From Microvirga ossetica (GTDB taxonomy: Bacteria > Pseudomonadota > Alphaproteobacteria > Rhizobiales > Beijerinckiaceae): a stretch of DNA of 64,000 nucleotides. Below, in pieces: positions 8,576-49,929 of this stretch. The DNA lies in NCBI RefSeq assembly GCF_002741015.1, contig NZ_CP016619.1, forward strand, positions 248,001 through 312,000, given 5' to 3'. The notes beneath the pieces were generated by a model, which was not told the DNA's origin, searched no databases, and saw only the letters and a program-made list of their open reading frames with translations. A program made the position numbers and the translations under genes. Position 1 is the stretch's first letter. Every line of letters begins with the position of its first letter.

Positions 8576-8590
8576 CCGGATCGGCCAGCG

Positions 8591-12123: not shown

Positions 12124-12128
12124 GCCCG

Positions 12129-12722: not shown

Positions 12723-13223
12723 GTGCGCCGTGACAAGGCGACGCTTTCCAGTGGGTGCAAGTCCCACCCGGCCACCGCTCCAGCCGGAAGCAACCGGAGC
12801 AGTCATGGAGGTAACGAAATGGCTGAAGCCTTCGGAGAGCGGGTCACGAATTGGTGACCGCGCGAGTGTGCAGGCCGCAACGTGAGTGAACGCTGAGCAA
12901 GCCTCGAAAAGGACGATGTGCAGGCCGACCCGACAACCCTTTCGGGGAAGGCTGATACGGCTGGGTGAATGAGCAAAGAGTACGCCCAGGCGCTGCACCG
13001 GGGTAGTGGCGGCAGCATGGACACAAGGAAAGCGCACGCAACACGGGAAGCCCCAGGACGTGGTCAGGGATGACCAACCGGAGGCCCGCGAGGGACAGGC
13101 CGGGCGCCCTGGGGTGGCGGAGAGGTCCGTAGTACCGCTGAAGCCAGTCAACGCTGGTCGAGGAAAGGGACCTCAGTTCAAGACAGACGCAAGACGTGGT
13201 GAGGGACCTGGAGATTGGCCAAC
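12723..13223 (+). mobile_element. Group II intron, 5' fragment only
   Basis: Begins GTGCGCCGTGACAAGGCGAC, the GUGYG-type 5' splice end. It then has GGGTGCAAGTCCCACC and the structured domain I to IV region, ending in the open stretch that normally leads into the intron-encoded reverse transcriptase. The reverse transcriptase, domain V and the 3' end are missing. The fragment stops where the IS481 element and the IS6 fragment begin. It cannot splice or move by itself. Confidence 0.65.
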
Positions 13224-14216: not shown

Positions 14217-14270
14217 AAGCTGTCCCTCCAAGAAGAGATGATCGTATCACCACTTCGTGGGACTGAACAT
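13228..14270 (-). mobile_element. IS481-family element flanked by CTAG
   Basis: The ends are matching inverted repeats: ATGTTCGGTCCCAAGG at the left, and ATGTTCAGTCCCACGA at the right when reverse-complemented. CTAG occurs directly outside both ends (13224-13227 and 14271-14274), as expected for an element that duplicates a CTAG target. It is inserted at the junction between the group II intron fragment and the IS6 fragment. About 1.04 kb. Confidence 0.75.
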
Positions 14271-14442
14271 CTAGCGCCCACTGCCGGACGGTTTCGTGGC
14301 TGACCAAGTTACCTCGGGCAGCGGGCACCTCCTCGACCATGCGCAGGCTCAACGGAAATCGGAAGTACAACCAGACGACATAGCTGATCACCTCAGCTGG
14401 GAAGCGGTGACGGGCGTAGTGAGGATGAGGGGTCGATCTCAT
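14271..14442 (-). pseudogene. IS6 family transposase, N-terminal fragment
   Basis: A minus-strand frame begins at 14442 with HYARHRFPAEVISYVVWLYF, then RFPLSLRMVEEVPAARGN and LVSHETVRQWAL, the N-terminal helix-turn-helix of IS6 transposases. It is cut at the CTAG where the IS481 element and the intron fragment begin; the catalytic part is missing. The sequence to about 14512 (GGTGCTTGACACGG when read on the minus strand) may be its terminal region. Confidence 0.75.
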
Positions 14443-14647
14443 TCCCTACCTATGCCAACATCCCGTCACCTCCAAGTTAAGCTGATGGTGCCCCTACCGT
14501 GTCAAGCACCCGACTAGGATTGGGAGGCTGTCTCGCCGCAAATGAATATATGCTCCGGCCGATTGATGCACCATAGCAAGTTAAAGCATGCGGGAAGAGG
14601 CCGAAACGCAAAACCGATCAAGCCCATCGGTTGTTGTTCAGCCTCAT

Positions 14648-15289
14648 TCAGGGCCTTTGAGTTGCCGGTGGAGCAGGAGCGGTGGCGCCTGAACTCTCGA
14701 TGTTCGAGGAGCTGTCACTCACATTGTCCCGGAAGGCGGGAGCGCTCTGGAGTTGCTCTTTGGTCATCGTCAGAATGAGGCGGTCTGGAATCCCATTATC
14801 ATGCCGTGCAGCTGCGCTGGTCGCTGGAGGAGATGTGCCTGTCGCCGCTCCTGGTTGGGCATTAGTGACCGGTGGAGATGGGCTCACCGTCTTGCCCATC
14901 AGTGAGGTGTCCTGCGAATCTGCTGCAACGGCCCCAGGTTGAAACAGCAACATCGACATTGGAATGGCGACATCCTTCTCACCAATCCCCAGGAAGCCAC
15001 CCACGCCGATCATGACCGCCACCACCTGTCCATTGCGATTTATCAGAACATCATTGATCTCCCCGATGTTCTCATTGTTTGCCCCGTACACACGTGTTCC
15101 ACGCAAGTTGGTTGAGCGAAATTGATCCGGTTGGCGATACTCAAGGAAGACAGGGCCTTTAGTCGCTGAGCCTGTGGGCGAAGTGCCCTCCCCCGCTGAG
15201 AGCGGCGGCGACGAGGGAGCCTGCGCGGTCGCCTGTCCAGCCACGATCCAAGAGACCATAAGGCAGACGCCCATGTAAGGCTTGTACAT
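14648..15289 (-). CDS. Secreted PRC-barrel domain protein
   Basis: 213 residues. A signal peptide (MYKPYMGVCLMVSWIVAG, cleavage near ATAQ) is followed by a PRC-barrel: FRSTNLRGTRVYGANNENI, then GEINDVLINRNGQVVAVMIG, then GGFLGIGEKDVAIP. A low-complexity Pro/Ser/Thr tail follows with LILTMTKEQLQSAPAF. This layout is typical of periplasmic PRC-barrel proteins of Methylobacteriaceae, whose role is unknown. Start at 15289 with GGAGAAG upstream. Confidence 0.8.
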   Translation of the reverse strand: MYKPYMGVCLMVSWIVAGQATAQAPSSPPLSAGEGTSPTGSATKGPVFLEYRQPDQFRSTNLRGTRVYGANNENIGEINDVLINRNGQVVAVMIGVGGFLGIGEKDVAIPMSMLLFQPGAVAADSQDTSLMGKTVSPSPPVTNAQPGAATGTSPPATSAAARHDNGIPDRLILTMTKEQLQSAPAFRDNVSDSSSNIESSGATAPAPPATQRP

Positions 15290-15678
15290 GCGTACTTCTC
15301 CATTCGACGCAGCATCATTCTGCACTTGGCGGCCAACAGATACAATCCGCTAAGCAATGGCCCCTATGCTGCGGCGACCGCAGATCCCATAGATATCATA
15401 CTTGCGCGCTGCAAACCGCATCAGCTCTCTCGTCTGACAAGCATAGCCGTTATTACGATTGGCCGTTGCCATCAACATTGTGATCTCAGGTTTCCTGGAA
15501 CCTACCGATTTCCATGAGACAGCTCGCCGTCACCTTAAAAAAGCTCATGTGGATGGCGAGGTTGTGCTGTGTGTGGCCGCACGCGATCGTCGCGCATTCG
15601 CAGGCGCCCGCAATTTCCGGCCTGCGCAAGCGGGCCTCGGACTGGGGAGCGGGCGACAAGCTGTGCCACGACAGATGC

Positions 15679-17613
15679 ATGCATGAACCAAAGAGCCTGT
15701 CGGGCCGCCATAGCCCTCTTCCTGCCGCCGCTACCGGGGTTGAGCAAGAGGCCAATCTCAGTCCGCCGATTGAGACGGTCGAAGCTGTCGAGCAGGCGAC
15801 CCAGCACGTCCTGAACGCGGAGGCTGACGGACCTCCACGCGGAGAAGGCGTTGCCGAGGATCTCTACCGTATCTTCCGTGACATGTTGCAAGGTCGGACA
15901 GGCTGGCCGGTCGTCCGGCTCGTCTTTGCCATTGTCGTGGTGCTCATCGGCAATATGTTCGGGCAGGTTCGGCTGAACGAGTGGAACGGCGCATTCTTCG
16001 ACGCTGTTGAGAAGCGGAACTCTGTGGCGTTCCTCAACCAGCTCCTTGTCTTTCTCATCATCATCGCCGCCTTGCTGGCACTGGTTGTGGCCCAGACTTG
16101 GCTTCAGCAACGGCTCAAAATACGCCTAAGGGAGCGACTGACCCACACCCTTTTCGATAGCTGGCTCCAGCCAGCCCGAGCCTACCAGCTGGGCCACGTT
16201 GGTCCTTCCGGCTCCCAAGCCGATCAACGTCTACAGGAAGACTGCCGGCTGTTCTCGGAATTTACCACCGAGCTTGGCGTGGGTATGCTCCAGGCGCTTC
16301 TTCTGCTTGTCAGCTTTCTCGGCGTCTTGTGGACACTCTCCTCCTACGCCAGTTTTGAGTTTGAAGGGCGTGAGATCGTGATCCCGGGCTACATGGTGTG
16401 GGTCGCTGTCGCTTATGCCGGTATCGGGTCAGGGTTGACGTGGCTCGTGGGCCGGCCTCTCATCCGCCTGAACACCGAGCGATATGCGCGAGAAGCGGAC
16501 CTGCGCTTTGCTATCGTTCGAGTGAGTGAGAGTGCCGAGAGTATCTCCCTCTATTCCGGGGAACCGGACGAACGTCGCAATCTCAATAGTTTCCTTGACG
16601 CTGTCCTCCTGTCGACCCGCCGACTGTCTGGCGCTCTGGCCCGACTGACCTGGATCACGTCGGGTTACGGTTGGCTCGCCATCGTTGTACCGATCCTTGC
16701 TGCCGCCCCAGGCTACTTCAGCGGGCGGCTATCTTTCGGCGAGATGATGATGGTCGTCGGAGCCTTCAACCAAGTTCAGGCCGCCTTGCGATACTTTGTC
16801 GATAACTACCCCAAAATCGCAGACTGGCGATCGGCCGTGTTGCGACTGGCAGGATTTCGACAGGCTGCGCTTGATCTCGATCGTATCGCGATGGGCACTC
16901 GACGCATCGAGATTTGCAATCATCCCGACGGGTGGCTCAGCTTCGAACACCTTTCCATTGCACTGAATGATGGTAGCATCCTCATCGAGGAAGCGACGGC
17001 CGAGGTCCGAACCGGAGAGCGCGTTCTGATCATCGGAGTCTCTGGATCGGGCAAGAGCACGCTGTTTCGCGCGATCGCCGGGCTTTGGCCCTGGGGATCT
17101 GGCGTTATCCGCACACCTTCTGCCAGTGACATGATGTTTCTGCCGCAGCGGCCCTATCTGCCGCTTGGCAGTCTCCGCTCGGCGATATGCTATCCCGCGG
17201 GCCCTGATGCGTTCGACGATGCAACAGTCAAGGCGGCTCTGCACCGGGTCGGCTTGCATGAATTTGCTGGGCTGCTCGATCGCGCCGAGCGCTGGGACAG
17301 ATCGCTTTCGCTTGGCCAGCAACAGCGTGTCGCCTTCGCGCGCGTCCTTCTTCACAAGCCGAAATGGGTCTTCATGGATGAGGCCACATCGGCTCTTGAC
17401 GACGATAATCAGGCCTCGATGCTGGCCATATTTACGCAAGAGCTCGCGCGTGCATCGGTACTGTCTATCGGCCATAGGCCCGGCTTGGATCAGTTCCATG
17501 CCCGTACACTGCATATCCGCAAGACCGATGAAGGCGCCATTCTGTTGGCGCTCCCGGTTCCTGCGAGAAGCCGATCTTGGCTTCGCTGGCTTCCCCGAAG
17601 GCGTGCGAGATAA
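15679..17613 (+). CDS. ABC transporter, fused permease and ATPase (ABCD/YddA/SbmA-like)
   Basis: 644 residues from ATG 15679. About six membrane spans (for example VVRLVFAIVVVLIGNMFGQ) form an SbmA/BacA-type permease. The GNMFGQVRLNEWNGAFFDAV motif and the TERYAREADLRFAIVRVSESAE EAA-like loop are typical of the ABCD group. The C-terminal ATPase has Walker A GVSGSGKST, signature LSLGQQQRVAFAR, and Walker B WVFMDEATSALD. An inner-membrane half-transporter, expected to work as a homodimer. The frame is open upstream to 15514; I prefer 15679, but neither start has a good ribosome site. Confidence 0.85.
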   Translation: MHEPKSLSGRHSPLPAAATGVEQEANLSPPIETVEAVEQATQHVLNAEADGPPRGEGVAEDLYRIFRDMLQGRTGWPVVRLVFAIVVVLIGNMFGQVRLNEWNGAFFDAVEKRNSVAFLNQLLVFLIIIAALLALVVAQTWLQQRLKIRLRERLTHTLFDSWLQPARAYQLGHVGPSGSQADQRLQEDCRLFSEFTTELGVGMLQALLLLVSFLGVLWTLSSYASFEFEGREIVIPGYMVWVAVAYAGIGSGLTWLVGRPLIRLNTERYAREADLRFAIVRVSESAESISLYSGEPDERRNLNSFLDAVLLSTRRLSGALARLTWITSGYGWLAIVVPILAAAPGYFSGRLSFGEMMMVVGAFNQVQAALRYFVDNYPKIADWRSAVLRLAGFRQAALDLDRIAMGTRRIEICNHPDGWLSFEHLSIALNDGSILIEEATAEVRTGERVLIIGVSGSGKSTLFRAIAGLWPWGSGVIRTPSASDMMFLPQRPYLPLGSLRSAICYPAGPDAFDDATVKAALHRVGLHEFAGLLDRAERWDRSLSLGQQQRVAFARVLLHKPKWVFMDEATSALDDDNQASMLAIFTQELARASVLSIGHRPGLDQFHARTLHIRKTDEGAILLALPVPARSRSWLRWLPRRRAR

Positions 17614-17928
17614 AGTTAGGGCCACTCGTTTGCGGATCTAACGCCTTTGAGTGCGTTCATTGTGCTCCATTCTCAGTCGCTGCAACGGAGTCCTTTTTGC
17701 CGCGGCCCTATTGCTCCCGCCATCGCGTCGCAGAGACCAGCGGTGCCACAGCCGGTGCGGTTCGGGGCATCGTCATGTCTGGATGGCGCCCGTCGAGTAC
17801 GCCGACCCAGCCCGATCCCCGGCTCGGCCACCCCACAGGGTCATGTTGTAGGGATGATCGGCTGATTAGGCCGCGGCCCGAGATTAGGGTCATCTTAGCC
17901 CAACGTACCATAGCCAATTTTGGACAAA
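17614..17928. other. Intergenic stretch, nothing recognised
   Basis: 315 bp between the transporter and the hydrolase. The hydrolase frame is open through most of it, but the translation (for example CVHCAPFSVAATESFLPR) is not like any hydrolase N-terminus and no motif was found. Confidence 0.4.
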
Positions 17929-18752
17929 ATGCAGACGACATCGGGGATCGTTCCTGTCGGCCCGCCCAGATCGCGGCCGAGTGGACCGGCGGCGGCCAAC
18001 CGGTTGTCTTCCTGCACGCCGCCGTCGCGGACCGTCGGATGTGGCATCACCAGCTTGCTGCGCTAGCCTCGGGCTATCACGTGATCGCATTCGACCGCCG
18101 AGGCTTCGGTGAGGCGCCGGCTGTCGACGAGGCCTACAGCCAAACAGCCGACTCGTTTGCCGTGCTCGACCACCTGGTTGAGGGGGGTCGGCCGGTTGTC
18201 CTGGTTGGCCGCTCGCAGGGCGGCCACATCGCGATCGATGCCGCCCTCGCGTCGCCCGATCGCGTCGCAGGGCTCGTCCTAATCGCGCCGTCGGTCAGCG
18301 GAGCGCCCTCGGCAACACCCCACGAGGCTGTCCGCCGCCTGCTCGATGCGATTGATCGGGCCGAGAAGTCAGGCGATCTCGATCAGGTGAATCGGCTGGA
18401 AGCGGCGCTCTGGCTGGATGGACCGTTGGCGGACCAGGGTCGCGTTAAAGAACCGGCGCGCGAACTGTTCCTGGCCATGAATGGCATTGCGCTAGCAGCC
18501 CCGGTGATCGGTCGCGTTCAGCAACCCGCCTTGGCCTGGGACCAGCTCGACCAGATTGCCGGTCCCGTGCGCGTCCTTTGCGGTGACCTCGACGTCCCCC
18601 ACATCCGGAAGCGCTGCCGCCAGCTGGCGGTGGCGCTTCCGGATGCTCGGCTTGAGATCCTGCCCGGCGTCGCCCATCTGCCGAGCCTCGAAAACCCCGA
18701 CCTTTTGACTGCTCACCTATTGGACCTGCTTGCCGATTGTCTGCGCGCTTGA
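17929..18752 (+). CDS. Alpha/beta hydrolase, probable N-terminal frameshift
   Basis: The body has PVVFLHAAVADRRMW (oxyanion region), VVLVGRSQGGHIAIDAAL (nucleophile Ser in G-R-S-Q-G), VLCGDLDVP (acid) and GVAHLPSLENP (catalytic His), so the triad is present. In this frame there is no believable start. ATG 17929 in a neighbouring frame gives MQTTSGIVPVG, which would join AQIAAEWTGGGQPVV naturally if one base were added at about 17960-17970. So either the gene is frameshifted or the sequence has an error there. The substrate is unknown. Confidence 0.65.
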
Positions 18753-18984
18753 AGACTACGACGCCTTTCTCCGGCTTTCCGGAAGGACACCGTCAAGCGG
18801 TATTTGGCGCCCTGAGCTTGCATGAGCAACCGAAGCTGGACGGCTTTGCTGCCAAGCTGACATCGCTCGCGATTTGTGGGAAAGTTCTTTTGCGTCGGAT
18901 CTCCTGCCGATGAGCCTGCCGGGACCGTTCGGCTGACTGAATGGCAAGAGCCGCGATCGATCCGCCAAGATACGGGGACGACAA

Positions 18985-21474
18985 GTGCAGAAGATTGCGC
19001 AGCGACTGTCGTTCTATACAGGCCTCGGCCTGATCACCGCAGCAACCCTGATGCTGCAGATCGTCGAAACCCGGATCATCTCCGTCACATCCTGGTATCA
19101 CCTGGCATTTTTCGTCATCAGCATCGCGATGTTCGGCCTCACGGCCGGAGCGGTCTGGGTCTATCTCCGGCCCGAGCGGTACCGCCCGGGGCAGCTGTCC
19201 TATCACCTGAGCGCCGCCTCACTCAACTTCGCCCTCGCGACGATCCTGGCGCTCCTGGTGCAGTTGACCATTGTCACGAGCCTGCCCGCATCGGTCATGT
19301 CACTCGTCGTCTGGACCGAGTTCGCCGTTGCCTTGTCTCTCCCGTTCTTCTTCTCCGGCATCGTCGTCAGCCTAGCCCTGACCCGCAGCCCCTTCCCCGT
19401 CGGCGTGGTCTATGGGATCGACCTGCTCGGCGCGGCTCTCGGCTGCCTAGGGGCCCTCGGTCTGCTCAATCTGGTCAGTGGTCCCTCGGCAGTGCTCTGG
19501 ATTGCGGTCCTTATTGCCGCCGGCGGCCAGTTCTTCGCGCGGGCGGATCTCGGGGATGTGCCACTGGGCCGGTCTGTGGCCGGCTGGCTTTTCCGGTATC
19601 GCGGCCCTGTGCTTGCAGGCCTTGCGATCCTCGCCTTCGCTAACAGCTTGATCGAGGGCGTCCGGCCGACGGTGGTGAAGGACCAGATCGAGCATCCGGC
19701 GACGATCGCCTATGAGAAATGGAACTCGTTCTCGCGCATCACGGTCGGCCAGCCTGAGAGGACGCGACCGGCGCTCTGGGGGCCGTCCCCACGCTTTGTC
19801 GCAGATCCGATCGAGCAGCGCTGGATGAACATCGACGGCGGTGCCGGGACCGCGGTCTATCGCTTCTCCGGCGATCTGAACGAGTTGGCCTTCCTCCGCT
19901 ACGACGTCACCAACCTCGCCTATGCTGTTCCCGGCCTGCAGACCGGGGCGGTGATCGGCGTCGGCGGCGGCCGGGACCTCTTGTCAGCGCGCGTGTTTGG
20001 TGTCTCAGAAGTGGTCGGCGTCGAGATCAACCCGATCTTCATCGACCTGTTGACCCGGCGCTTCGCGAACGACACCGCCATCGGTCGGCAGCCCGGCCTC
20101 TCCTTCGAAGTCGATGAGGCGAGAAGCTGGTTCGCCCGCGCCGAACGCTCCTTCGACGTCATCCAGATGAGCCTGATCGACACCTGGGCGGCCACTGGCG
20201 CCGGCGCCTTCACCCTGTCGGAGAACGGCCTCTACACGGTCGAGGCCTGGCGGATCTTCCTCGAGCGCCTGACGCCGTCGGGTGTCTTCACCGTGAGCCG
20301 TTGGTACGCCCCCGGCGAGGTCAACGAGACCGGCCGCATGGTGAGCCTGGCTGTGGCAACGCTCCAATCCCTTGGGGCGACGGACCCGAAGAGACACCTC
20401 TTCATGGCAGCGTCAGACAATGTGGCGACCTTGGTCATGTCGCGCTCGCCGCTGTCGGCCCAAGCCTTGGCGGCGCTCCGGCAAGCTGCGCACACCTACG
20501 CGTTCTCCGTCCTGCTGAGCCCGCAGGCACCGGCCGCCTCGCCGCTGCTCGAGCGCATCGTGGCGGCGCCCGATCGCAGCGCTCTCGCGCGGGCCACCGA
20601 GGCCTCCTACCTCGACCTGAGCCCGCCGACTGATGCACGCCCGTTCTTCTTCAACCAGTTGCGGCTCGGTCGCCTGCTTGATCAGGACGTCTTCACTCTG
20701 GCTTCGAGGGTGGGCGTCTATGGAGGCAATCTGAGCGCGACCCTGACACTCGCCATGCTGATCCTCATCTCGGCCATTCTCGTCGCAGCGACGATCATCG
20801 TTCCGCTGCGGTCTATGGTGAGTTCGAGGCCATCCGGGCTGATCGGCGCCGGAACCTTCTATTTCGGCCTAATTGGCATCGGCTTCATGATGGTTGAGAT
20901 TGGCCTGCTTCAGCGCATCAGCGTGTTTCTGGGCCACCCGGTTTATGCTCTCAGCGTCGTCCTCTTCAGCCTGATCCTGTCGACCGGCATCGGCAGCCTG
21001 GTGTCCGAGCGTGCCCCACTCGACAGCAGCGCGAGGCTCGTCAGCTGGTCGGCTCTGACCAGTCTGTACCTCCTTCTCCTGCCTTTCTGGCTGCCCGACA
21101 TCCTGCTCCGGCTTGAGAGCGCAGGCCTCTTGCTCCGAGCCGGACTGGCGGTGCTGGTTCTCTCGCCAGCCGGCTTCCTCATGGGCTTCGGGTTTCCGAC
21201 CGGAATGCGGCTGGTGTCGGCGATCGACAAGAAACCAACCCCTTGGTTCTGGGGCATCAACGGAGCAGCCGGTGTGCTCGCGGCCAGCGTCGCCGTGCTG
21301 ACAAGCATCGAGTTCGGCATCGATACGACGCTTCGGATTGGGGCGATCTGTTACCTTCTGCTGCCCGGACCTGCTTTGCTTCTCGCCAGATGTGCCCGGG
21401 CGATGCGCGAGAGCGGCCGTTCAATTGGAGACGAAGGTCCACCTTCGACGCTCGACCTGACATCCATCTCATGA
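18985..21474 (+). CDS. Membrane protein with an embedded spermidine-synthase-like domain
   Basis: 829 residues starting at GTG 18985 with GGGGACG upstream. Layout: six or so N-terminal membrane helices, a soluble Rossmann domain at about residues 230-540, then about six more membrane helices. The Rossmann part has AVIGVGGGRDLLSARVFG and VVGVEINPIFIDLL, the SAM or decarboxylated-SAM binding motifs of spermidine-synthase-like enzymes, and FDVIQMSLIDTWAATGAGAF. Such fused proteins are widespread but uncharacterised. It probably modifies a small polyamine-like or lipid substrate at the inner membrane; this is inference. No partner gene is adjacent. Confidence 0.8.
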   Translation: MQKIAQRLSFYTGLGLITAATLMLQIVETRIISVTSWYHLAFFVISIAMFGLTAGAVWVYLRPERYRPGQLSYHLSAASLNFALATILALLVQLTIVTSLPASVMSLVVWTEFAVALSLPFFFSGIVVSLALTRSPFPVGVVYGIDLLGAALGCLGALGLLNLVSGPSAVLWIAVLIAAGGQFFARADLGDVPLGRSVAGWLFRYRGPVLAGLAILAFANSLIEGVRPTVVKDQIEHPATIAYEKWNSFSRITVGQPERTRPALWGPSPRFVADPIEQRWMNIDGGAGTAVYRFSGDLNELAFLRYDVTNLAYAVPGLQTGAVIGVGGGRDLLSARVFGVSEVVGVEINPIFIDLLTRRFANDTAIGRQPGLSFEVDEARSWFARAERSFDVIQMSLIDTWAATGAGAFTLSENGLYTVEAWRIFLERLTPSGVFTVSRWYAPGEVNETGRMVSLAVATLQSLGATDPKRHLFMAASDNVATLVMSRSPLSAQALAALRQAAHTYAFSVLLSPQAPAASPLLERIVAAPDRSALARATEASYLDLSPPTDARPFFFNQLRLGRLLDQDVFTLASRVGVYGGNLSATLTLAMLILISAILVAATIIVPLRSMVSSRPSGLIGAGTFYFGLIGIGFMMVEIGLLQRISVFLGHPVYALSVVLFSLILSTGIGSLVSERAPLDSSARLVSWSALTSLYLLLLPFWLPDILLRLESAGLLLRAGLAVLVLSPAGFLMGFGFPTGMRLVSAIDKKPTPWFWGINGAAGVLAASVAVLTSIEFGIDTTLRIGAICYLLLPGPALLLARCARAMRESGRSIGDEGPPSTLDLTSIS

Positions 21475-40313: not shown

Positions 40314-41474
40314 CTAAACGATGCCCCAGGCGCGGTAACGGGTGCGGCCGGTGAGCTCGCGCGGCAGCGCGCCGCCCAGTTGGGCCAGCATCAGGTCGAT
40401 GGCCTTGGGCGTGACCTTGAGCAGCTTGGCCCCAAGTGGCACCGTCACCAGCGGGCGCGACAGGAACAGCCCGACCAAACCCGGCAGCTTCGAGTTGCTG
40501 CGGGTCTTGGATGTGACCCGGTTCATCAGCTCGCGCGCCAGAATCAGCCGGTCGAGGTCCTTGTTGGCGATCGTCAGCGCCTCCTCGATGACGCTGCAGT
40601 AGCCATCAAGCTTCTCCTTCGCCCCTTCCCTGCCCTGCGGCCGGAACTTCGACTGCTTGAACCCGGCCGCGAGCGGCAGCAGATGGCTCGTCAGGCCGCG
40701 GGCCCGCAGGATGGAGGCAGCCATCGTGAGACCGAGCCAAGGCTGGCGGGTATAGAGGTTGAGATCGAGCCAGGCATTCCATGCGACTGCCGCCGCTGCA
40801 ACAGCAGGCCAGTGGGACGTCCGTTTGACCAGATCGAGCCACAGGTCCTCGCTCTCAGTCTCATCCTGTTCCGGATCATAGACAAGATGCGAGCGGTTCT
40901 TGCGCAACGGGGTCTCACCGGCGAGCACCTTGCTGGTGCGGTCGAGCAGGGCGTCGATTTCGGCAAAGTGCGCTGCCCACGGATCGACATCGTTGGCATG
41001 AGGCGGATAGGCCTCGTCATCGTCTGGATCGGGCCGCTTCACCTTTGAGCGCTGCGCCACCTCGTCTGCGACGCCGCCAATGCCTCTCAGAGCCGCCAAT
41101 CCATCGATCGAGAGGGGCCAGGGCGCCTTGCGCGCCATCGCCGTGCGCCGGGACTTCAGGGCCGCAGCGGCCCGGGTCAGTTCATGGGTGGGGTGGCGCA
41201 CGTCCATGCCGGCATCGTGCAGCACCAGATCGCCGACATCGACGAGATGACCGTCGAGGATCAGCGCCCGCACGGCTTCGGTCATGTCGCAGCGTGACTG
41301 CCAGCCGGCAGCCAAGCCGGAGGCCTCCAGCCGGGCGTCGAACCGGAGAACGGCGATCGTGATCTGCTCGAGCCGACCGACGATGGTCTCCCACGGCAGG
41401 TCCGGGAGGTCGTAGGTACGGGGGATCAGCCGTTCCTCGTCGTCGAACTCCCTTGCCCTGCTGCCGAAAGCCAC
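40314..41474 (-). CDS. DUF1612/HTH replicon protein (RHE_PE00001 family)
   Basis: 386 residues from GTG 41474. The N-terminal part has LPWETIVGRLEQITIAVLRF, then MTEAVRALILDGHLVDVGDL, then VLHDAGMDVRHPTHELTRAA, a highly conserved block. The C-terminal helix-turn-helix is VTVPLGAKLLKVTPKAIDLM. This family occurs almost only on rhizobial plasmids and islands, often near a recombinase and rep genes, as here. It is a likely DNA-binding protein of unknown role. Confidence 0.8.
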   Translation of the reverse strand: MAFGSRAREFDDEERLIPRTYDLPDLPWETIVGRLEQITIAVLRFDARLEASGLAAGWQSRCDMTEAVRALILDGHLVDVGDLVLHDAGMDVRHPTHELTRAAAALKSRRTAMARKAPWPLSIDGLAALRGIGGVADEVAQRSKVKRPDPDDDEAYPPHANDVDPWAAHFAEIDALLDRTSKVLAGETPLRKNRSHLVYDPEQDETESEDLWLDLVKRTSHWPAVAAAAVAWNAWLDLNLYTRQPWLGLTMAASILRARGLTSHLLPLAAGFKQSKFRPQGREGAKEKLDGYCSVIEEALTIANKDLDRLILARELMNRVTSKTRSNSKLPGLVGLFLSRPLVTVPLGAKLLKVTPKAIDLMLAQLGGALPRELTGRTRYRAWGIV

Positions 41475-41708
41475 GCTTGCGCCCTCAAGCTAAGTGATTG
41501 ATCTCAGAGGTTGTAGCTTGGCAAAGAGAAGCTAGGCAAGGCCTCGCTACGTCACGGGGTGAGGCAATTTGACATTCTACTCGGCGACATTCGTTGCGAG
41601 TGAACGCGTTGCTACCAGCAGCCCTCAGAACTTCATAGCGGCTAATACAGGCACGAAATGAAGATCGAAGCTATTGTTTTTTAAGCCATTTTTGGCTGAT
41701 CTGCGACG

Positions 41709-41844
41709 GCCCTCCCCTCCCCTGCCGGTTAGCAAAATGGCTTGAGAAACGTCTTCAAACGATCCTTTTCTCATGATCGCGAAGTATGTACAAAGAGCTG
41801 AAAGCTCATCAGAAATTGACACATGGCTCCCTCCCCTACTCGGC
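41709..41844 (+). other. Res-like recombination site A
   Basis: About 136 bp matching 49156-49294 in inverted orientation. Three blocks are conserved with matched spacing: a ~56-bp block (CAAAATGGCTT then CGTCTTCAAACGATC), TATGTACA exactly 20 bp later in both, and CCTCCCCTACTC about 38 bp after that. The spaced-block structure and its position over the start of a serine recombinase gene look like a resolution site with subsites. Confidence 0.65.
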
Positions 41845-42731
41845 AGCGCCTGATTGGCTACGCCCGCGTCTCGACCGAGGAGCAGGCAACAGACGCTCAG
41901 CTTGATGAGCTCAAGGCTGCCGGCTGCGAGGTTATCCATCAGGAGCACGGATCCGGCGCCTCCCGAACTCGGCCGGTTCTCTCCCGGCTCATCCGCGAGA
42001 TCTCGAAGGGCGAAGTCCTCGTGGTCGTTCGGCTCGATCGCTTGGCCCGGTCGGTCAGCCATCTCCTCGAAGTGATCGAGACGCTTGAGGAGAAAGGTGC
42101 CCACTTCAAATCCCTCAGGGATCCAATCGACACGTCGACCCCGCAAGGCATGTTCTCTCTGCAGGTCCTGGGCGCCGTCGCTCAGCTGGAGCGATCGCTC
42201 ATCTCGGAGCGCACGAAGGCTGGCGTGAAGGCGGCAGTGGCTAAGGGAAAGAGGCCGGGGAACCCCGGTTTGCGTGAGGGACGGCCGGACGCAATCCGCA
42301 AGACCGCCCTCGCCCGCGACCGCGTCTATCTGGGCGACCTTTTGACGGCAGCGGATGCCTTCCTTCCCGTCGTCCGTCAGATGCGGCCGGACCATAGCTG
42401 GCGAGATGTCGTGCAGGTGCTGAATGCACGAGGCCAGCGGTGGACGGATCAAAGCCTCCGGAGGGCGATCAAGCGATTGGTTGCCGAGCGGATGGCTGAG
42501 CCGGAGTTGTTACGGAAAGCCGGAAGACGTCCGCCGGACGATCGCATCATGACCCTGATTGCCGGCATCGCGATCTCTAACCCGACCCTTACCTTGCGTG
42601 AGATCGGCGCTCAGCTGGAAGGGATGCGAGAGCGGACGCCACGGGGCGGGAGAGAATGGAAGGCCAGCTCGGTCAAATTCCAACTCGATCGGGCCCGCAA
42701 AATTGGCCTCGCAGTCCCCGAAATCCAGTGA
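41823..42731 (+). CDS. Serine recombinase, resolvase/invertase family
   Basis: 302 residues. The catalytic domain begins RLIGYARVSTEEQATDAQLD (Ser17), with LVVVRLDRLARSVSHLLEVI (catalytic Arg pair) and GMFSLQVLGAVAQLERSLIS. A long helical C-terminal domain of ~120 residues (MRPDHSWRDVVQVLNARG, LTLREIGAQLEGM) is larger than in Tn3 or Hin recombinases and resembles plasmid multimer-resolution proteins of rhizobial replicons. Site A covers its start, so it likely regulates itself. Confidence 0.85.
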   Translation: MAPSPTRQRLIGYARVSTEEQATDAQLDELKAAGCEVIHQEHGSGASRTRPVLSRLIREISKGEVLVVVRLDRLARSVSHLLEVIETLEEKGAHFKSLRDPIDTSTPQGMFSLQVLGAVAQLERSLISERTKAGVKAAVAKGKRPGNPGLREGRPDAIRKTALARDRVYLGDLLTAADAFLPVVRQMRPDHSWRDVVQVLNARGQRWTDQSLRRAIKRLVAERMAEPELLRKAGRRPPDDRIMTLIAGIAISNPTLTLREIGAQLEGMRERTPRGGREWKASSVKFQLDRARKIGLAVPEIQ

Positions 42732-42837
42732 TCGCGATGCTGTCACCAGAGTTTGCGTTCGAAGTGCGACACTTGGATAGCTTGTGCCACCCTTGGTAGT
42801 CATGATGACCTGCCAGCAGGTCGTGGACAGGTCGCCG

Positions 42838-42856
42838 GTAGGTCAAATTGACCTAC
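42838..42856. promoter_or_regulatory. 19-bp inverted repeat, operator-like
   Basis: GTAGGTCAA, one A, then TTGACCTAC: 9-bp perfect arms. It shares the GGTCA...TGACC core with the parS-like palindromes near repA, but with a different centre. Confidence 0.45.
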
Positions 42857-43026
42857 AAGCCACGGATTCGATAGCCGCGACGGCGCTTCCGCTGGAGCCA
42901 GTGCTCCAGAGCTTCGAGCGTCATACCCTGATGTTCGTAGATTTCTACACGTTGGTGGCGAGGCATCCCAATACCGCCCTACTCGCCGACCCATGCCGCT
43001 TACGGATGCTGGCTGCTCGCATTCGC

Positions 43027-43407
43027 TCACCACGTCTCGCCCGGGTTCTCAAACTCCATCAGCTCGCCCCCAATCCGAAAGAGGGCATCATCAAGAGGCG
43101 ACTTGCCTCCGCCGGCGCCTATCGGCCAGAGCCCCCTCCCCTGCCTTCGGACGAGCCTGCGCTTCACGAGCCGCGTAGCCTCTACCGCGAGATAGGCCAG
43201 TTCCCGATCCGGCATGCCATCCAGGAGTTCGTCAATCTCGGGCCTTGTTGCCTTCGCGCCGAGCGTGCCCAACGACACTGGCTCCGGCGCCCGGGTCTCT
43301 TCACGCACCGGCCTCGGCGGGGAGGTCCGGCGGGCTGGCTTGGCAGGTAACGGAGGTGCCCCGAACAGGTCTCCTTTACGCTCATCGCGAACCGGGTTTC
43401 GCGCCAT
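43027..43407 (-). CDS. Hypothetical replicon protein
   Basis: 126 residues with an excellent GGAGGGGG site before ATG 43407. A disordered Pro/Arg-rich N-terminus is followed by a helical part: LGAKATRPEIDELLDGMPDR, then ELAYLAVEATRLVKRRLVRR, and GKSPLDDALFRIGGELMEF. I recognise this outline from Methylobacteriaceae plasmids, where it is annotated hypothetical. Confidence 0.6.
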   Translation of the reverse strand: MARNPVRDERKGDLFGAPPLPAKPARRTSPPRPVREETRAPEPVSLGTLGAKATRPEIDELLDGMPDRELAYLAVEATRLVKRRLVRRQGRGLWPIGAGGGKSPLDDALFRIGGELMEFENPGETW

Positions 43408-43516
43408 TCCCCCTCCAGTCCGTTTTCCTCTCGTTAACCATAGTGGGTGCCACGCCTTCGTCCTTCAACCGAAACGGTGACGGTACTGATGGTTGCGCGA
43501 GAGAATGGCCCCTCCC

Positions 43517-44464
43517 CTACAAAGGGTTGCTCTGTTCAATGGAAGGTGCCGGACGGTCAGCTTCATGATGATGCGACCCGTCATCCGCCGGGGCATCGGA
43601 CGTCGTCCCGATCCCATTAGCAGGCAGTCGCATAAGAAGGCTGCACAGGCGCGCCAGTGTCGAGCGCAGATCATGGCGGTGGACCACCATGTCGACCATG
43701 CCGTGTTCCTTCAGGAACTCGGCCCTCTGGAACCCGTCGGGCAAGTGCTCGCGGATCGTCTGCTCGATCACCCGTGGTCCGGCGAACCCGATCAGGGCTC
43801 CTGGCTCGGCCATATGGACATCACCCAACATCGCATAAGAGGCCGTCACCCCGCCCGTGGTCGGATTGGTGAGAACGACGATATACGGGAGCTTTCTCTC
43901 GCGCAGCCGCTGGATCAGTACCGTGGTTCGTGCCATCTGCATGAGGGATAGGATGCCCTCCTGCATCCGGGCTCCACCCGAGGCGGTGAACGCCACAAAG
44001 GGAGTGGCTCGCTCGATCGCCGTTTCGGCACCTTGGATGAACGCCTCCCCGGCTGCCACCCCGAGCGAGCCGCCGATGAAATCTGGGTCGTGGGCTGCCA
44101 CGGTCATCGGCAGGCCTTCGACGGTTCCTGTGCCGACTTTGATCGCGTCCGCTAACCCGGTTTTCGTCCGGGCCTCTTTCAGGCGGTCGGTGTAGCGCTT
44201 GGTGTCTCGGAACTTCAGCGGATCGGATTCTCCGTCTGGGACTGGCACGTCCGTCCACTGGCCCTCGTCGAAGGTCAGTGTCAGGCGCTGGATCGCCGAC
44301 AGGCGCATGTGGTGGCCAGAGCCTGGGATCACCCATCGGTTGGCCTCAACATCCTTTTGGAACACCACTTGCCCGGAATCCGGGCACTTGATCCAGAGGT
44401 TGTCAGGCGCATCCCGCTTGAACAGGGTTTTGATCTTTGGCGCGACATCGGTAATCCAGCTCAC
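43517..44464 (-). CDS. accD: Acetyl-CoA carboxylase carboxyltransferase subunit beta
   Basis: 315 residues from GTG 44464 ([18 protein letters not shown]). It carries the full carboxyltransferase beta fold: [79 protein letters not shown] and [20 protein letters not shown]. The N-terminal zinc-finger cysteines of E. coli AccD are mostly replaced ([19 protein letters not shown]), as is normal in the rhizobial form. AccD acts with AccA in the cytosol to make malonyl-CoA. A copy sitting in a replicon core, with no accA or folC beside it, may be an extra paralogue or a relocated essential gene. Confidence 0.9.
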
Positions 44465-44714
44465 GCGGCGTTCCTTCCCTATCTGCCGGCGCAGCACAGA
44501 CCACGGGAATGTAGCAGGAGTGCGACTCCACGCTGGGCGGGCCCTTGCCCGGCTGCTCAGTCACAGTTCACAAATCAGAGGAGCTCGACCATAGTCCGGC
44601 CAAATCATATCCGAAGACGGCGCACTATGGTGAGGGGGCAAAGAGTGTTGTCCAGTCCGGCAAACCAGCTCAAGCGGGGCAAGACAACTCGACGCGTTGG
44701 CGGCCGTCATCCCA

Positions 44715-45801
44715 ATGTCCTCGGCCGATCGCTATGCCGAGGTCCTGACCGATGCTGACGTCGCCACTCTGAAGCACTTAGCCGATACGGGAATGGGCGC
44801 CAACACGCTGCGCGCCCTCGCCTCTGATCTCGCCTACCTCGAGGCTTAGTGCCGCGCCGCGACCGGAGGCCCCCTCCCATGGCCAGTCGACCCGGAGCTC
44901 GTCCTGAAGTTCATTGCCCATCACATGTGGGACCCGGATCAGAAGGCTGTCGATCCGGCTCACGGGATGCCCGGCGACGTGATTGAGGAACTCAGGCAGC
45001 GCAAGATCCTGAAAGTCAACGACCACACGCGGCCAAGACTGTATCCCGACGGCTGTCCAACTGGTCGACCCTGCACCAGTGGAAAGGCGTTGACGCCCCG
45101 TTTGATCATCCCGGCATCTAGAAGGCCGTTCGTCTGGCGATGAAGGCCTCAAATCGCGAACCCCAGCGCACGAGTCGCAAGCCCGTTACCCGAGATGTTC
45201 TCGAGCGGCTACTTGCTTCCTGCGGCGGATCGAGGGCACTCGACATCCGCGACCGGGCAATTCTTCTGGTTGCCTTCGCGGCCGGGGGGGGCGGCGGCGC
45301 AGCGAGGTTGCGACGCTGAGGCACTCCCAAATCCCGGTGGTTGATTCGATCAAGCTCCGACCAGCCGATCCAGCGTCTCCAACCATGACCTGCATTCGCA
45401 TTGCACTGGGACGAACGGAAATGACCACCGCAGGGCAGGGGGCTTTCATGTTCGCCGCAGGCCGCGCTGCTGTAGCCCTCCATGACTGGATGCATTTTGC
45501 GGAGATCACATCGGGCCCGATCTTCCGGGAAATCCGAAAGGATGGTTCTATCAGGTCGAACCAGCTGACCCCGCAATCGGTCAATCTCATCCTTAAGAAG
45601 CGCTGCCGGATGGCCGGGCTGGACCCAGCAGATTTCAGCGCCCACGGACCACGTTCCGGCTTCATGATCCAAGCGGGACGTGATGGCATCCCACTGGTAG
45701 ATGCTATGCGCCAGTCAGCCCACAAGTCAGTCCAGCAGGCCGCTGGGCACTACGGCGAGCAGGAACATGCTCAGAGCATGTCGGTCCGGGTCGGACTTTG
45801 A
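44715..45801 (+). pseudogene. Tyrosine recombinase (phage integrase family), heavily decayed
   Basis: Several frames joined give a ~360-residue integrase: MSSADRYAEVLTDADVATLK, LADTGMGANTLRALASDLAY, LEA then TAG (a TGG Trp in relatives), VDPELVLKFIAHHMWDPDQ, KAVRLAMKASNREPQRTSRK and DIRDRAILLVAFAAGG with the first Arg region, then DFSAHGPRSGFMIQAG (HxxR) and QQAAGHYGEQEHAQ (catalytic Tyr). At least one stop and two or three frameshifts (a G-run at about 45285 among them). It lies just upstream of the parS-like sites. Confidence 0.7.
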
Positions 45802-45842
45802 CCTCAGCCAACCACCGCGTCGCTTGGCCCTGGACCCATGTG

Positions 45843-45858
45843 GTGGTCAGCTGACCAC
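45843..45858. promoter_or_regulatory. parS: parS-like palindrome 1
   Basis: GTGGTCAGCTGACCAC, perfect, extended to GG..CC. It differs from the repABC parS pattern (GTTNNCNGCNGNNAAC) only at positions 3 and 14. Confidence 0.75.
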
Positions 45859-45891
45859 CGGACATCTTGGGCGCCCCTATGGCCCCTCACT

Positions 45892-45907
45892 GTGGTCAGC
45901 TGACCAC
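45892..45907. promoter_or_regulatory. parS: parS-like palindrome 2
   Basis: The same 16-bp palindrome, extended by T/A to 18 bp. 49 bp after palindrome 1. Confidence 0.75.
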
Positions 45908-46064
45908 AGAACGGATCTTTCAAACCAAGCACCTCGTAGAGGCTGGCGGACAATCACGGAAGGCAGGCCGGTTGCCTATGCGGCGGCCCCTTGCTCGATC
46001 ACACAGGTTCCAGTCGCACAGCCGTCCACGTACCAAATTCGTCTCGTGCTCATCATGGCCTAAT

Positions 46065-46092
46065 AGCTCCAAGTTGAGAGCTCCAAGTTGAG
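46065..46092 (+). repeat. Tandem 14-bp direct repeat
   Basis: AGCTCCAAGTTGAG twice without a gap, next to palindrome 3. Confidence 0.7.
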
Positions 46093-46101
46093 CTGCCGCC
46101 C

Positions 46102-46117
46102 GTGGTCAGCTGACCAC
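46102..46117. promoter_or_regulatory. parS: parS-like palindrome 3
   Basis: Perfect 16-bp copy, 210 bp after palindrome 2. Confidence 0.75.
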
Positions 46118-46236
46118 AAACCCCGGATCGATCCACCAGCGGCGGGCTGGGCGCGCTATAGCCTTCCAGATCCGGTAGTCAGCAGTGGTAATCGTAACGC
46201 GATATCAATGCAAACTCTGGCATAGATGCTCTTGTT

Positions 46237-46252
46237 GTGGTCAGCTGACCAC
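46237..46252. promoter_or_regulatory. parS: parS-like palindrome 4
   Basis: Perfect 16-bp copy, with TGT/ACA flanks. Confidence 0.75.
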
Positions 46253-46349
46253 AAAATCCACAGGTGCCGGCGACATTTCCAAACTATCGGGCCAGATATC
46301 CTCCCTTGCTCGTAGTGCCTGTGAGAACGATGCCGAGCTGGAGGTTTAA

Positions 46350-46365
46350 GTGGTCAGCTGACCAC
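46350..46365. promoter_or_regulatory. parS: parS-like palindrome 5, near the repA promoter
   Basis: Perfect 16-bp copy, 107 bp before the repA start, so RepB binding here could also repress repAB. Confidence 0.75.
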
Positions 46366-46472
46366 GACCTGAGTACCCGCGAACGCATTAACAGGTTTTT
46401 AACGTCTCTACGGCCTACTCACGGACGAAAGCAGTTCTTCGCGCTGCAGACCGTTACTACGAGAGGCGAACC

Positions 46473-47681
46473 GTGGCCCAAGCGTTATTGAAATCAGATC
46501 TGAAGACCGTTCTTGAAGACCTGATCGCTGAGCATGCCAGCGGTCTATCAGAGAAGCTGAATGAACAGCGCCTAATGCTGTATCCACCAACTGCGCGTAA
46601 AACATTGCGGAAATTTACGTCGGGAGAAGTGGCTCGCCTCGTCGGCATCAACGACAGCTATCTTCGGCGCCTTTCCTTGGAAGGGAAGGGGCCTGAGCCT
46701 GAAATGGCACCTAACGGCCGCAGACTCTACAGTCTTGAGGAAATCAATGCACTGCGGGCCTATCTCGACGAAAGCGGCAAGTCTGAACGCGGCTACGTCA
46801 AGCATCGCTCAGGAAGCGAGCACCTTCAGGTCATCTCCGTTGTGAATTTTAAAGGTGGAAGCGCCAAGACGACGACGGCTGCTCACCTGGCACAGCACTT
46901 GGCTCTCAGCGGATACAGAGTCCTGGCGATCGACCTAGATCCGCAAGCAAGCCTATCCGCTCTCCATGGCTTCCAACCAGAATTCGACGTTGGTGAGAAC
47001 CAGACCCTCTACGGCGCAATCCGTTACGATGACGAGGTCAGGGAGATCAGCGAGGTGATCCAGGAAACATACTTCCCTGGACTGCACATCATTCCAGGCA
47101 ACCTCGAGCTCATGGAATTTGAGCACGAGACACCCAAGGCCCTAACGAGCCGAGATCCGAACCAACCGCTCTTCTTTGCGCGGATGGGTATTGCACTTGG
47201 ACCTGTCGCTGAAAATTACGACGTCGTGATCATCGACTGTCCTCCGCAGCTCGGATACATCACCCTATCAGCCCTATGCGCCAGCACCGCGATGCTCGTC
47301 ACAGTGCATCCGCAAATGCTGGACGTCATGTCTATGTGCCAGTTCCTAACTATGACCTCAGACCTGCTGAGCGTCGTCAGAAACGCCGGCGCCACTCTCG
47401 AGTACGACTGGTTGAAGTACCTCGTTACCCGCTATGAGCCGGGCGATGGACCACAGAACCAAATGGTCTCGTTCATGCGGGAGCGATTCGGGGAACATGT
47501 CCTGAACTATCCGGTACTCAAGAGCACAGCAATTTCGGATGCCGGGATCACCAAGCAAACCCTCTACGAGGTTTCGCGCGAGCAGTTCACGAAGTCGACT
47601 TACGACCGGGCGTTTGAATCCCTGAACAACGTAAACTCTGAGATCGAGAGCCTCATCACAAAAGCTTGGGGGAGAGCATAA
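46473..47681 (+). CDS. repA: Plasmid partition ATPase RepA (ParA type)
   Basis: 402 residues from GTG 46473. An N-terminal DNA-binding part (TSGEVARLVGINDSYLRRLS, residues 49-68) is typical of the longer type Ia/RepA ParA proteins and lets RepA repress its own operon. The ATPase has the deviant Walker A KGGSAKTTT (127-135), Walker A' DLDPQAS and Walker B VVIIDCPPQ. It drives segregation of the replicon together with RepB and parS. Its stop overlaps the repB start (TAATG), so the two are translationally coupled. Confidence 0.9.
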   Translation: MAQALLKSDLKTVLEDLIAEHASGLSEKLNEQRLMLYPPTARKTLRKFTSGEVARLVGINDSYLRRLSLEGKGPEPEMAPNGRRLYSLEEINALRAYLDESGKSERGYVKHRSGSEHLQVISVVNFKGGSAKTTTAAHLAQHLALSGYRVLAIDLDPQASLSALHGFQPEFDVGENQTLYGAIRYDDEVREISEVIQETYFPGLHIIPGNLELMEFEHETPKALTSRDPNQPLFFARMGIALGPVAENYDVVIIDCPPQLGYITLSALCASTAMLVTVHPQMLDVMSMCQFLTMTSDLLSVVRNAGATLEYDWLKYLVTRYEPGDGPQNQMVSFMRERFGEHVLNYPVLKSTAISDAGITKQTLYEVSREQFTKSTYDRAFESLNNVNSEIESLITKAWGRA

Positions 47682-48820
47682 TGACCCGTAAAATCATCGC
47701 CAGCATGCTTTCGGGAGCGATTGACCCTGCTGCCCCCACCGAAAAGCCCACCCCCGCTGACAATGTACAGCCGCATCCCGCGTCACTGGCCCCTCGCAAG
47801 CGATCTCCCCTTGCACAGGGAGGGAGCATCGGCGGGAACAGCGCCGTTGGCGCGATCAACAAGGCCCTTGAGACTGTACTGTCCGCGCAAGGGGACGTAA
47901 GTGAGCTACGTGCGCAGCTCGCCTCTGGCCAAGCGATCGTCGAACTCGACCCTGAGATCATTGAAGGATCCTTCGTTCGAGATCGAATGGACGGGTCTGA
48001 TGCTGCCCACGATTCCCTCGTTGAGGCTATCAGAGCCCGTGGTCAGCAGGTTCCTATCCTCGTCCGTCCTCATCCGACCAGGCTTGGTCACTACCAAGTT
48101 GCCTATGGTCACCGCCGACTGAGAGCAGTTACGCAACTCGGAATTAAGGTCCGGGCTGTCGTCAAGCAAATGAGTGACGACGAACTCGTCGTTGCCCAAG
48201 GTCAAGAAAATAACGCACGCCTCGATTTGACCTATATCGAGCAGGCAATGTTCGCCTTCCGCCTTGAGCAACGCGGGTTCTCGCGCGCTACAATCACCGA
48301 AGCTCTCTCGATCGATAAATCCAATCTCGCCAAACTGATCAGTGTTCCCAACAAGGTTCCTCATACAGTTATTGAGGCGATCGGCCATGCGCCCGGTATC
48401 GGACGGGGACGATGGCTGGAACTCACAGATCTCCTTCAGGATCAGGCTAGTCTGGAGCGGGCGCAATCAATCATCAGCCGTGATGAATTTGGGAACGTAG
48501 AGAGCGCTGACCGTTTCCAGCGCTTACTGACAGACCTCTCCGAGAGTGCAGCATCCACTAGCTCAAATGGTGCGACAGGTCCTTCCACGGACAGCCAGGA
48601 TGCTCCCGCCTCACAGATACCGGCTTCTAAGTCCGCGCCAATTTACTGGAACGACCCTACCGGCCGAAAAATTGCTCGAATCGTCAAGGATCACAAGAGC
48701 GTCACTCTAAAGGTTAATCGGAAGCTTGCCCCTGAGTTTGGTGATTACCTCGTCTCAAAGCTCGACGAACTCTACGGCAGCTTCCGAGCTCAACACCAGC
48801 AAGACAGTACTCACGAATGA
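47681..48820 (+). CDS. repB: Plasmid partition protein RepB (ParB type)
   Basis: 379 residues from ATG 47681. The ParB N-terminal domain has LVEAIRARGQQVPILVRPHP and YQVAYGHRRLRAVTQLGIKV (box II, CTP-binding GxxRxxA-like), then QENNARLDLTYIEQAMFAFR. A helix-turn-helix follows (FSRATITEALSIDKSNLAKL). It binds the parS-like palindromes upstream and stimulates RepA. In repABC operons repC follows within about 200 bp; here it does not. Confidence 0.9.
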   Translation: MTRKIIASMLSGAIDPAAPTEKPTPADNVQPHPASLAPRKRSPLAQGGSIGGNSAVGAINKALETVLSAQGDVSELRAQLASGQAIVELDPEIIEGSFVRDRMDGSDAAHDSLVEAIRARGQQVPILVRPHPTRLGHYQVAYGHRRLRAVTQLGIKVRAVVKQMSDDELVVAQGQENNARLDLTYIEQAMFAFRLEQRGFSRATITEALSIDKSNLAKLISVPNKVPHTVIEAIGHAPGIGRGRWLELTDLLQDQASLERAQSIISRDEFGNVESADRFQRLLTDLSESAASTSSNGATGPSTDSQDAPASQIPASKSAPIYWNDPTGRKIARIVKDHKSVTLKVNRKLAPEFGDYLVSKLDELYGSFRAQHQQDSTHE

Positions 48821-48876
48821 TGGTAGCAGAGGGCAGGGCTCATGGTTCTGCCCTCACGATATTTTCTCCAGATGCT

Positions 48877-49160
48877 CTAACCCGGCCGGCTTGTCAGATT
48901 TTTCCCTTCCGCAACGATCTCAAGGAGCTCGTCGGGAAGCGGTCTCTGAAGCTTCAGAGCATCTTCAGTCGGCGCAATGAGCCAGATGTCATACTCCTCA
49001 GGCGTGGTGAGGATTACCGGCATCGCTTTCGGATGGATTGGTCCGACCACGCCGTTGGGCTCTGACGTGAGAAGCGAATAGAGCAGGTGTTCACCTTCAA
49101 CGGGATCAGCCTTCGGTTCACGCACGCCGGTCCAAGAGCGCCAAATACCAGCAAAGGCGG
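48877..49160 (-). pseudogene. SOS-response-associated peptidase (SRAP/YedK), C-terminal fragment
   Basis: The reverse frame reads FAGIWRSWTGVREPKADPVE, then LLYSLLTSEPNGVVGPIHPK, then AMPVILTTPEEYDIWLIAPT and ALKLQRPLPDELLEIV. This is the second half of the SRAP fold, including the PIHPKAMPVIL motif with the active-site His. The N-terminal half with the catalytic Cys2 is missing. The break falls at the edge of res-like site B. SRAP proteins seal abasic sites in single-stranded DNA. Confidence 0.75.
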
Positions 49161-49294
49161 AGTAGGGGAGGGTATGAGCTGGTAAGAACTGCTATCCGCA
49201 GGCGATATTCTGTACATAGTTAGATGCTGCGTTCAATTGATCGTTTGAAGACGTCTTTTAAGCCATTTTGTTAATCAGCAGGCGAGGGGAGGGC
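49156..49294 (-). other. Res-like recombination site B (inverted relative to A)
   Basis: Matches 41709-41844 on the opposite strand, with the same three blocks: CAAAATGGCTT and CGTCTTCAAACGATC, TATGTACA 20 bp later, and CCTCCCCTACTC. The last block corresponds to codons 3-6 of the recombinase gene at site A, yet no recombinase follows; truncated SRAP DNA does. Confidence 0.65.
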
Positions 49295-49929
49295 TTTCCC
49301 AAAGTCGGCGAAAGTGCTTGAAAAACAAAGGCTTTAACGACTCGACTGGCAACGAGAAGCCTACATAGGTGCCCGTGATCAGATCTCTGATGGAGCAGCT
49401 CACGATGCAGCCGAGCAATATGGCGTTTATCCAACCACCAGACTGTAGCTGCTTCCGGATTAGCTTCCCCAGTTACGCTTGCTCTCAATGATTGCAATGG
49501 CTTAGTAGTAAAACGAAGCGTGGCATTCGGAAGAGGCCAGGTTCGGATGCATTACGTGAGAGTAGCCTTGCTACGATCCATGCCGCTCCTGCAGCGATGA
49601 CCAGGGAGGGCAGGAGGCAGTTCGCTGCCCGATAGGCATCCACAGTGAAGAGCTGACCTTCTTACGGCCATGCCTAAAGGCTGAGTTTGATCTCCAACCA
49701 GTGGCTGCCCCGCTGGAGATCAGGTGCGGCCGGCTCATCTGCTTTTCGAGCATTTGATCTCACAGGGAAGGGCAGAGCGAACATTTCTTCTTGTTCAGCG
49801 TCAATTCTGTCCCAGTTTCAAACTTGGTCGTGCCCCCCCGGCCGATGAGAGGGATCGCATGAGACTGGAGCGACGCATTCTCTACGACCCATGGGCATTG
49901 TGTTGCCTCCTCGAGTGGGGTTGGCAGCG
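49295..49929. other. Intergenic stretch, no supported gene
   Basis: Between site B and the cytochrome gene. A minus-strand frame at 49258-49497 and others are open, but they overlap site B or lack ribosome sites and family similarity. The region probably holds the promoter of the molybdenum hydroxylase operon near its right end. Confidence 0.4.

Follow-up and report, generated by a model that had tools for sequence, protein, structure and literature searches.

RepA, RepB and the site parS determine which replicons are compatible in a cell. RinQ, a site-specific recombinase near repABC of the Rhizobium etli plasmid p42d, was reportedly described by Quintero et al. in 2002; the Tn3 and γδ resolvases are encoded by genes that lie beside their own res sites. 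The accessible part of one source describes RinQ, near repABC in R. etli, as an invertase/resolvase-type recombinase that is required for incompatibility (PMC10194956). Here we describe a RinQ-like serine recombinase gene that is enclosed, together with the partition genes repA and repB, between two inverted sites on a replicon of Microvirga ossetica. The stretch of DNA analysed, referred to as the window, comprises 64,000 nucleotides, positions 248001–312000 of a 977-kb contig (C4) in a genome of 9.63 Mb and six contigs (G000); among plasmid records, its top DNA matches are Microvirga plasmids. The two sites, A and B, are quite probably the targets of the recombinase encoded between them, and as such would bound a 7.5-kb partition cassette.

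The locus appears to share with the RinQ systems both the kind of enzyme and the kind of element associated with it. The window recombinase is of the serine type, is encoded beside the partition genes and is 66% identical over 289 amino acids to the recombinase encoded at positions 4408–5325 of the p42d record, which we take to be RinQ. A two-box element (GTTTGCAAACGATC and TTTGTACAAA types, with 34 bp from centre to centre) precedes the window recombinase gene by 67 bp, and an element with the same spacing lies 87 bp upstream of its p42d counterpart. What differs in Microvirga is that repB or repC is followed by a second, inverted element and that the loci bear traces of flank exchange, which point to the joining of cassettes to new neighbours; no second site was found in positions 1–20000 of the p42d record, a stretch without repABC. 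Phage invertases such as Gin of phage Mu are likewise similar in their catalytic domain, for which the nearest solved structures are DNA invertases (PDB 4m6f and 3uj3, presumably both Gin of phage Mu; E 6.9e-37), and in their layout, since here too, as in Gin/Hin-type systems, two inverted sites enclose the recombinase gene at one end of the segment. The Microvirga enzyme differs from them in an extra C-terminal part of about 150 residues and in that its segment carries partition genes; we know of no switched gene in it and of no Fis enhancer, a search for an enhancer not having been made. The resemblance to Tn3 and γδ lies in a recombinase gene that adjoins its site and in a likely role in dimer resolution, whereas the Microvirga sites on one molecule are inverted rather than direct and an architecture of three subsites is not demonstrable. 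A preliminary description of this DNA knew of no repAB locus in such an invertible unit; a similar recombinase near repABC, RinQ of R. etli, is already on record (accessible part of PMC10194956). In the literature surveyed, subscription papers aside, we noticed no description of inverted sites around a repAB cassette, although absence from print is not claimed; the accessible part of PMC12691615 contained nothing relevant to such cassettes.

Results

The A/B pair is the longest inverted repeat found between 38 and 54 kb of the window (arms of 87 nt, 77% complementary), and the two sites match each other by BLAST at 67.6 bits, a score that 60 first-order shuffles of this 16-kb stretch do not approach, their maximum being 36.2 bits; the inverted pair that had first been noticed in the letters is therefore real. 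A profile built from 15 sites, A and B both among them, places site A, the left site, at 41668–41803 on the forward strand (98.7 bits) and site B, the inverted right site, at 49201–49336 on the reverse strand (105.6 bits). These positions replace the borders drawn earlier (41709–41844 and 49156–49294), as the element extends about 40 bp further outward. The 16-bp core, ACGTCTTCAAACGATC, is identical in A (41749–41764, forward) and B (49239–49254, reverse), with 7474 bp between the two cores, and a TATGTACA box is found at 41785–41792 in A and at 49211–49218 in B. Three shared blocks had been taken for the subsites of a resolution site that reached into the recombinase gene; the conserved block instead runs outward, away from the gene, and a three-subsite structure cannot be demonstrated. 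The third block (CCCTCCCCTAC), which overlaps the recombinase start, is common to A, B and some other sites and is absent from most VF16 sites, and thus is not part of the genus-wide element. The core palindrome and a TGTACA box are conserved, while the outer block is conserved within the genus only. A shared structured RNA was considered and rejected: no Rfam match at E up to 1 was obtained for 40–51 kb, the alignment of the 15 sites has a folding energy of −0.8 kcal/mol and contains no base pair in which both partners have changed, and, against their own shuffles, site A folds with z −4.2 and three other sites with z −1.0, −1.9, and +1.2, which is not clearly better.

In a sample of 48 genomes of the genus, RepB was detected in 37 and a site match (E up to 1) also in 37; the two sets overlap and differ, one genome having RepB and no match (G018) and another a weak match and no RepB (G011). 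Site layout was scored within 15 kb of RepB under strict filters and with matches below 20 bits omitted. Among the matches listed, both sites are present at 37 of the 87 RepB hits, the left site alone at 16, the right site alone at 13 and neither at 21. Orientation is without exception: sites lie either upstream in the orientation of repB (53 loci) or downstream and inverted (50 loci). Among the same matches, no pair has the direct orientation of a Tn3/γδ resolution system within 15 kb of any of the 87 RepB hits. For at least 30 of the sites listed, RepB is absent from the 15 kb around them on the contig. The usual order is a DUF1612 gene transcribed outward, about 195 bp, the left site, the recombinase gene, repA, repB, sometimes repC, the right site, about 195 bp and again an outward DUF1612 gene. 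The DUF1612 gene is frequently absent, a long match being found within 2.6 kb on 19 of 74 flanks, and the window has it on the left flank only. A tree of 19 flank DUF1612 proteins does not cluster by side (seven changes, compared with a shuffled mean of 6.6). An AbrB-PIN pair resembling a toxin-antitoxin system lies between the left site and the recombinase gene in five loci (L045, L046, L063, L085, and L093).

The position of exchange was examined by aligning, at the core, 74 sites that come from 40 loci and comprise 38 left and 36 right ones. The nearest neighbour of a site is from the same side in 70 of 74 cases when the inner 50 bases are compared, in 36 of 74 for the outer 90 site bases and in 37 of 74 for the outer 200-bp spacer, the last two values being at chance level. 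Same-side agreement in 16-base windows stays at 0.46–0.63 from −200 through window 0 to +15, reaches 0.87–0.93 in the next six windows past +15 and falls to about 0.75 at +150. By single columns, association with side is first clear at +17, and p is below 0.05 at two positions (−18 and +15) of the 41 that span −24 to +16, which is the chance expectation. Identity in 23 same-side pairs with related inner ends is sharply above background from +12 on and modestly above it further out. In 18 pairs that are alike inside and unlike outside, none of them left-right, the first outer mismatch falls between −1 and +16. The opposite pattern, alike outside and unlike inside, is seen in 43 pairs, of which 20 are left-right, including one that consists of both sites of one locus. 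Identity above 65% over the outer 250 bp is found in 255 of 1334 left-right and 253 of 1333 same-side pairs; over the inner 300 bp it is found in 0 of 1334 and 196 of 1333, respectively. With inner ends that are side-specific and outer ends mixed between left and right, A and B behave in these comparisons as the recombination sites they had been proposed to be. Comparison of related genomes shows that cassettes have repeatedly been joined to different neighbouring DNA at the sites, that the switch of side is confined to about 10–11 bp at the core and that, over evolutionary time, the outer flanks occur on either side of cassettes.

Individual loci illustrate such events. In M. lotononidis (G014), the left site L098 agrees with L099 over 6000 of 6000 outer bases and at 92.1% over 1703 inner bases; it agrees with L100, on another contig of the same genome, at 98.2% over 1702 inner bases, and a 63-bp piece of the site is what matches of the 1375 outer bases on that contig. 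The switch point of L098 falls between +6 and +24. Past recombination between replicons, one of two options offered in the preliminary description, receives direct support from this trio; the comparison shows that one exchange or more has linked sequences that are found today on separate contigs of the same genome. A single 1.18-Mb replicon (G014:C2) carries the two repAB cassettes of L098 and L099, which are separated by about 415 kb and have 6 kb of identical left flank. The window cassette itself is 93.6–98.1% identical in three aligned stretches to that of G045:C214, the flanks of which, only about 340 bp beyond each site, are unrelated to those of the window (background level). The left flank of the window cassette, a penicillin-binding-protein-like gene followed by DUF1612, recurs beside other cassettes: in G025:C12 it is again the left flank, of a different cassette (87.7% over 3.1 kb), and in G001:C322 it is the right flank (80–81% over 1.9 and 1.6 kb). 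The left side of the G001:C322 cassette carries 391 bp of the window's right flank (76.8%); swapped flanks are what inversion predicts, with the second match being short and in part recurrent elsewhere.

The serine recombinase gene (41823–42731, forward strand; 302 amino acids; PF00239) begins beside site A, about 3.7 kb upstream of repA and on the same strand, and its RinQ-like product is the likely enzyme of the sites, with the two-box element presumably its target. Among distinct loci, all 39 that have a left site carry a recombinase gene in the orientation of repB, as against none of the three that lack this site, counts that come from loci picked largely for having both sites; L122 combines a strong left site with the recombinase. 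Of 16 loci outside the genus, 11 have the two-box element 83–134 bp ahead of the recombinase gene; six of these are from Rhizobium, one is from Methylocella tundrae and four are from other sources. In the remaining five loci, the element is 2.8–4.8 kb away in two and missing in three. The scan of loci outside the genus showed no second copy of the element, three of these loci (L165, L166, and L169) stopping at the end of the record. The recombinase gene is upstream of repA in Rhizobium and Microvirga, unlike in five loci from other genera of the family (L108–L112), where it is downstream of repC and convergent with repABC. In the genome of the window, the recombinase is one open frame on C4, C5, and C6, is split on C3 and survives as remnants on C1; the split copy (G000:C3:160408-161297) lies beside a degenerate left site, and the remnants (G000:C1:537369-539740) lie a few kb from a DUF1612 gene.

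Between the recombinase gene and repA, the cassette contains an accD-like carboxyltransferase gene (43517–44497, reverse strand; TIGR00515 above cut-off) and a degenerate tyrosine-integrase gene (44679–45798, forward strand), recognized by a tblastn match to an integrase of L008; the reading frame that remains of the gene in the window matches PF00589 below cut-off. Five copies of the palindrome GTGGTCAGCTGACCAC follow (45843–46365, no strand); at up to one mismatch there are five copies in the whole genome, all within the cassette, and their position suggests that they are parS. The partition ATPase gene repA (46473–47681; TIGR03453) and the gene for the ParB-type partition protein, repB (47681–48820; TIGR03454), are both on the forward strand and above cut-off, and a fragment of an SRAP-like gene, below the Pfam cut-off, is present between repB and site B (48877–49125). 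Outside site A, a RHE_PE00001/DUF1612 gene (40314–41474, reverse strand; NF040876 above cut-off) is transcribed outward from a start 194 bp away from the site, a placement that recurs beside other sites; according to the accessible parts of two sources, a DUF1612 relative is essential in R. etli (PMC9022086, PMC3898782).

The segment had been described as the core of a replicon. The recombinase gene, the accD-like gene, the putative parS, and repAB do lie inside it; RepC (PF03428) does not, its sole match on C4 being at C4:748135, about 450 kb from repAB, so that the segment is a partition cassette and not a whole replicon. RepC adjoins RepB on C6 only among the five RepB-bearing contigs of this genome, and an adjacent RepC match occurs at 24 of the 87 RepB hits of the genus. 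On C2–C5 of G000, as in most RepB loci of the genus, RepC lies far from repAB on the same contig. The cumulative GC skew of C4 (82% sampled) has a weak minimum in the 280–300 kb bin, which holds repAB; GC skew as a marker of origin or terminus was set aside.

Discussion

We propose that the strands are exchanged no more than about 10 bp from the core, the simplest crossover dinucleotide being the AT of the GATC that it contains. Recombination of a left with a right site in one molecule would then invert the cassette, and exchange between two replicons would fuse them, a second exchange leaving the cassettes swapped in a natural form of cassette exchange. Left-by-left recombination in a dimer would resolve it, probably the ancestral task, given that the scan of loci beyond the genus showed no second site. 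The inverted arrangement may be what is tolerated, since from between direct repeats the enzyme could excise repAB. Since left-left and right-right exchanges keep the flanks sided, full mixing needs left-right events, as in inversion. From the sequence comparisons, inversion is plausible, and exchange between replicons seems at least as well documented as inversion.

The mixing of flanks might have other causes. RecA, acting on conserved sites or on inverted DUF1612 copies, could shuffle the flanks while the sites serve regulation or dimer resolution only: it requires sequence identity alone, many outer flanks have DUF1612 genes in common as repeats, and the outer flanks of one contig end in identical inverted stretches of 127 bp, a sign of repeated outer DNA. 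Yet the conserved element extends about 85 bp outward and the switch is nonetheless confined to about 11 bp at the core, variable columns from −24 to +6 are without side signal save one (p 0.034), and the sites of one replicon are usually too diverged outside the core for RecA, which together make this explanation unlikely. Somewhat less probable still is a role of the sites as operators or promoters for the outward DUF1612 gene, together with which they would have been duplicated, recombination being incidental. The typical distance of about 195 bp between site and DUF1612 start on either side, and weak partial sites upstream of DUF1612 genes far from repAB, fit that idea; against it, full sites occur without adjoining DUF1612 (site B and both sites of M. 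terrae pR24_1), it is the recombinase and not DUF1612 that accompanies every left site in the distinct loci, and the two-box element precedes the recombinase in R. acidisoli and R. etli loci that have no annotated DUF1612 neighbour. Many cassettes also carry an integrase gene or fragment, degenerate in the window, and the tyrosine integrase rather than the serine recombinase could act on the sites; this we consider very improbable, as the integrase is present in only 14 of the 39 distinct loci with a left site, and G000:C2 and VF16 pMVF16-3 have an integrase and neither serine recombinase nor left site.

Several observations weigh against action of the adjacent recombinase on both sites as the source of the exchanges. 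Besides the manner in which the loci for the recombinase counts were picked, the association of gene and site is imperfect: the 19 kb of L120 include a strong left site but no recombinase, L119 has the recombinase and only a weak site, and L115–L117 have the recombinase, DUF1612 and weak sites with no RepB in the stretch. Far from the sites (beyond 1.6 kb), no pair of loci shares both flanks, collinear or swapped; at that distance, 127 flank pairs match in unchanged polarity, 64 of them on the same side and 63 on opposite sides, and eight match with polarity reversed. For the 200-bp outer spacers, collinear and swapped pairs number 57 and 61 at an identity of 0.60, 8 and 3 at 0.65, and 0 and 0 at 0.70, counts that are weak because the shuffled baseline identity is 0.52. 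Several short contigs end 50–435 bp outside the sites and not at the core, and thus give no sign of mixed orientation in a culture; a reading of active inversion from assembly breaks was rejected for the same reason.

On balance, we lean toward the view that Microvirga replicons exchange segregation systems by natural recombinase-mediated cassette exchange, in which a self-contained unit of recombinase, centromere, repA, and repB, framed by two inverted sites, passes from one backbone to another and inverts inside each. Narrowing of the exchange point to about 10 bp renders the claim testable with two short sites and one gene. If it is true, partition identity and backbone would have separate histories. 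Replicon typing by repAB would then not track the rest of the molecule where a dedicated enzyme exchanges the cassette, and that enzyme would provide large multi-replicon genomes with a built-in route to fuse, split, and re-label their replicons.

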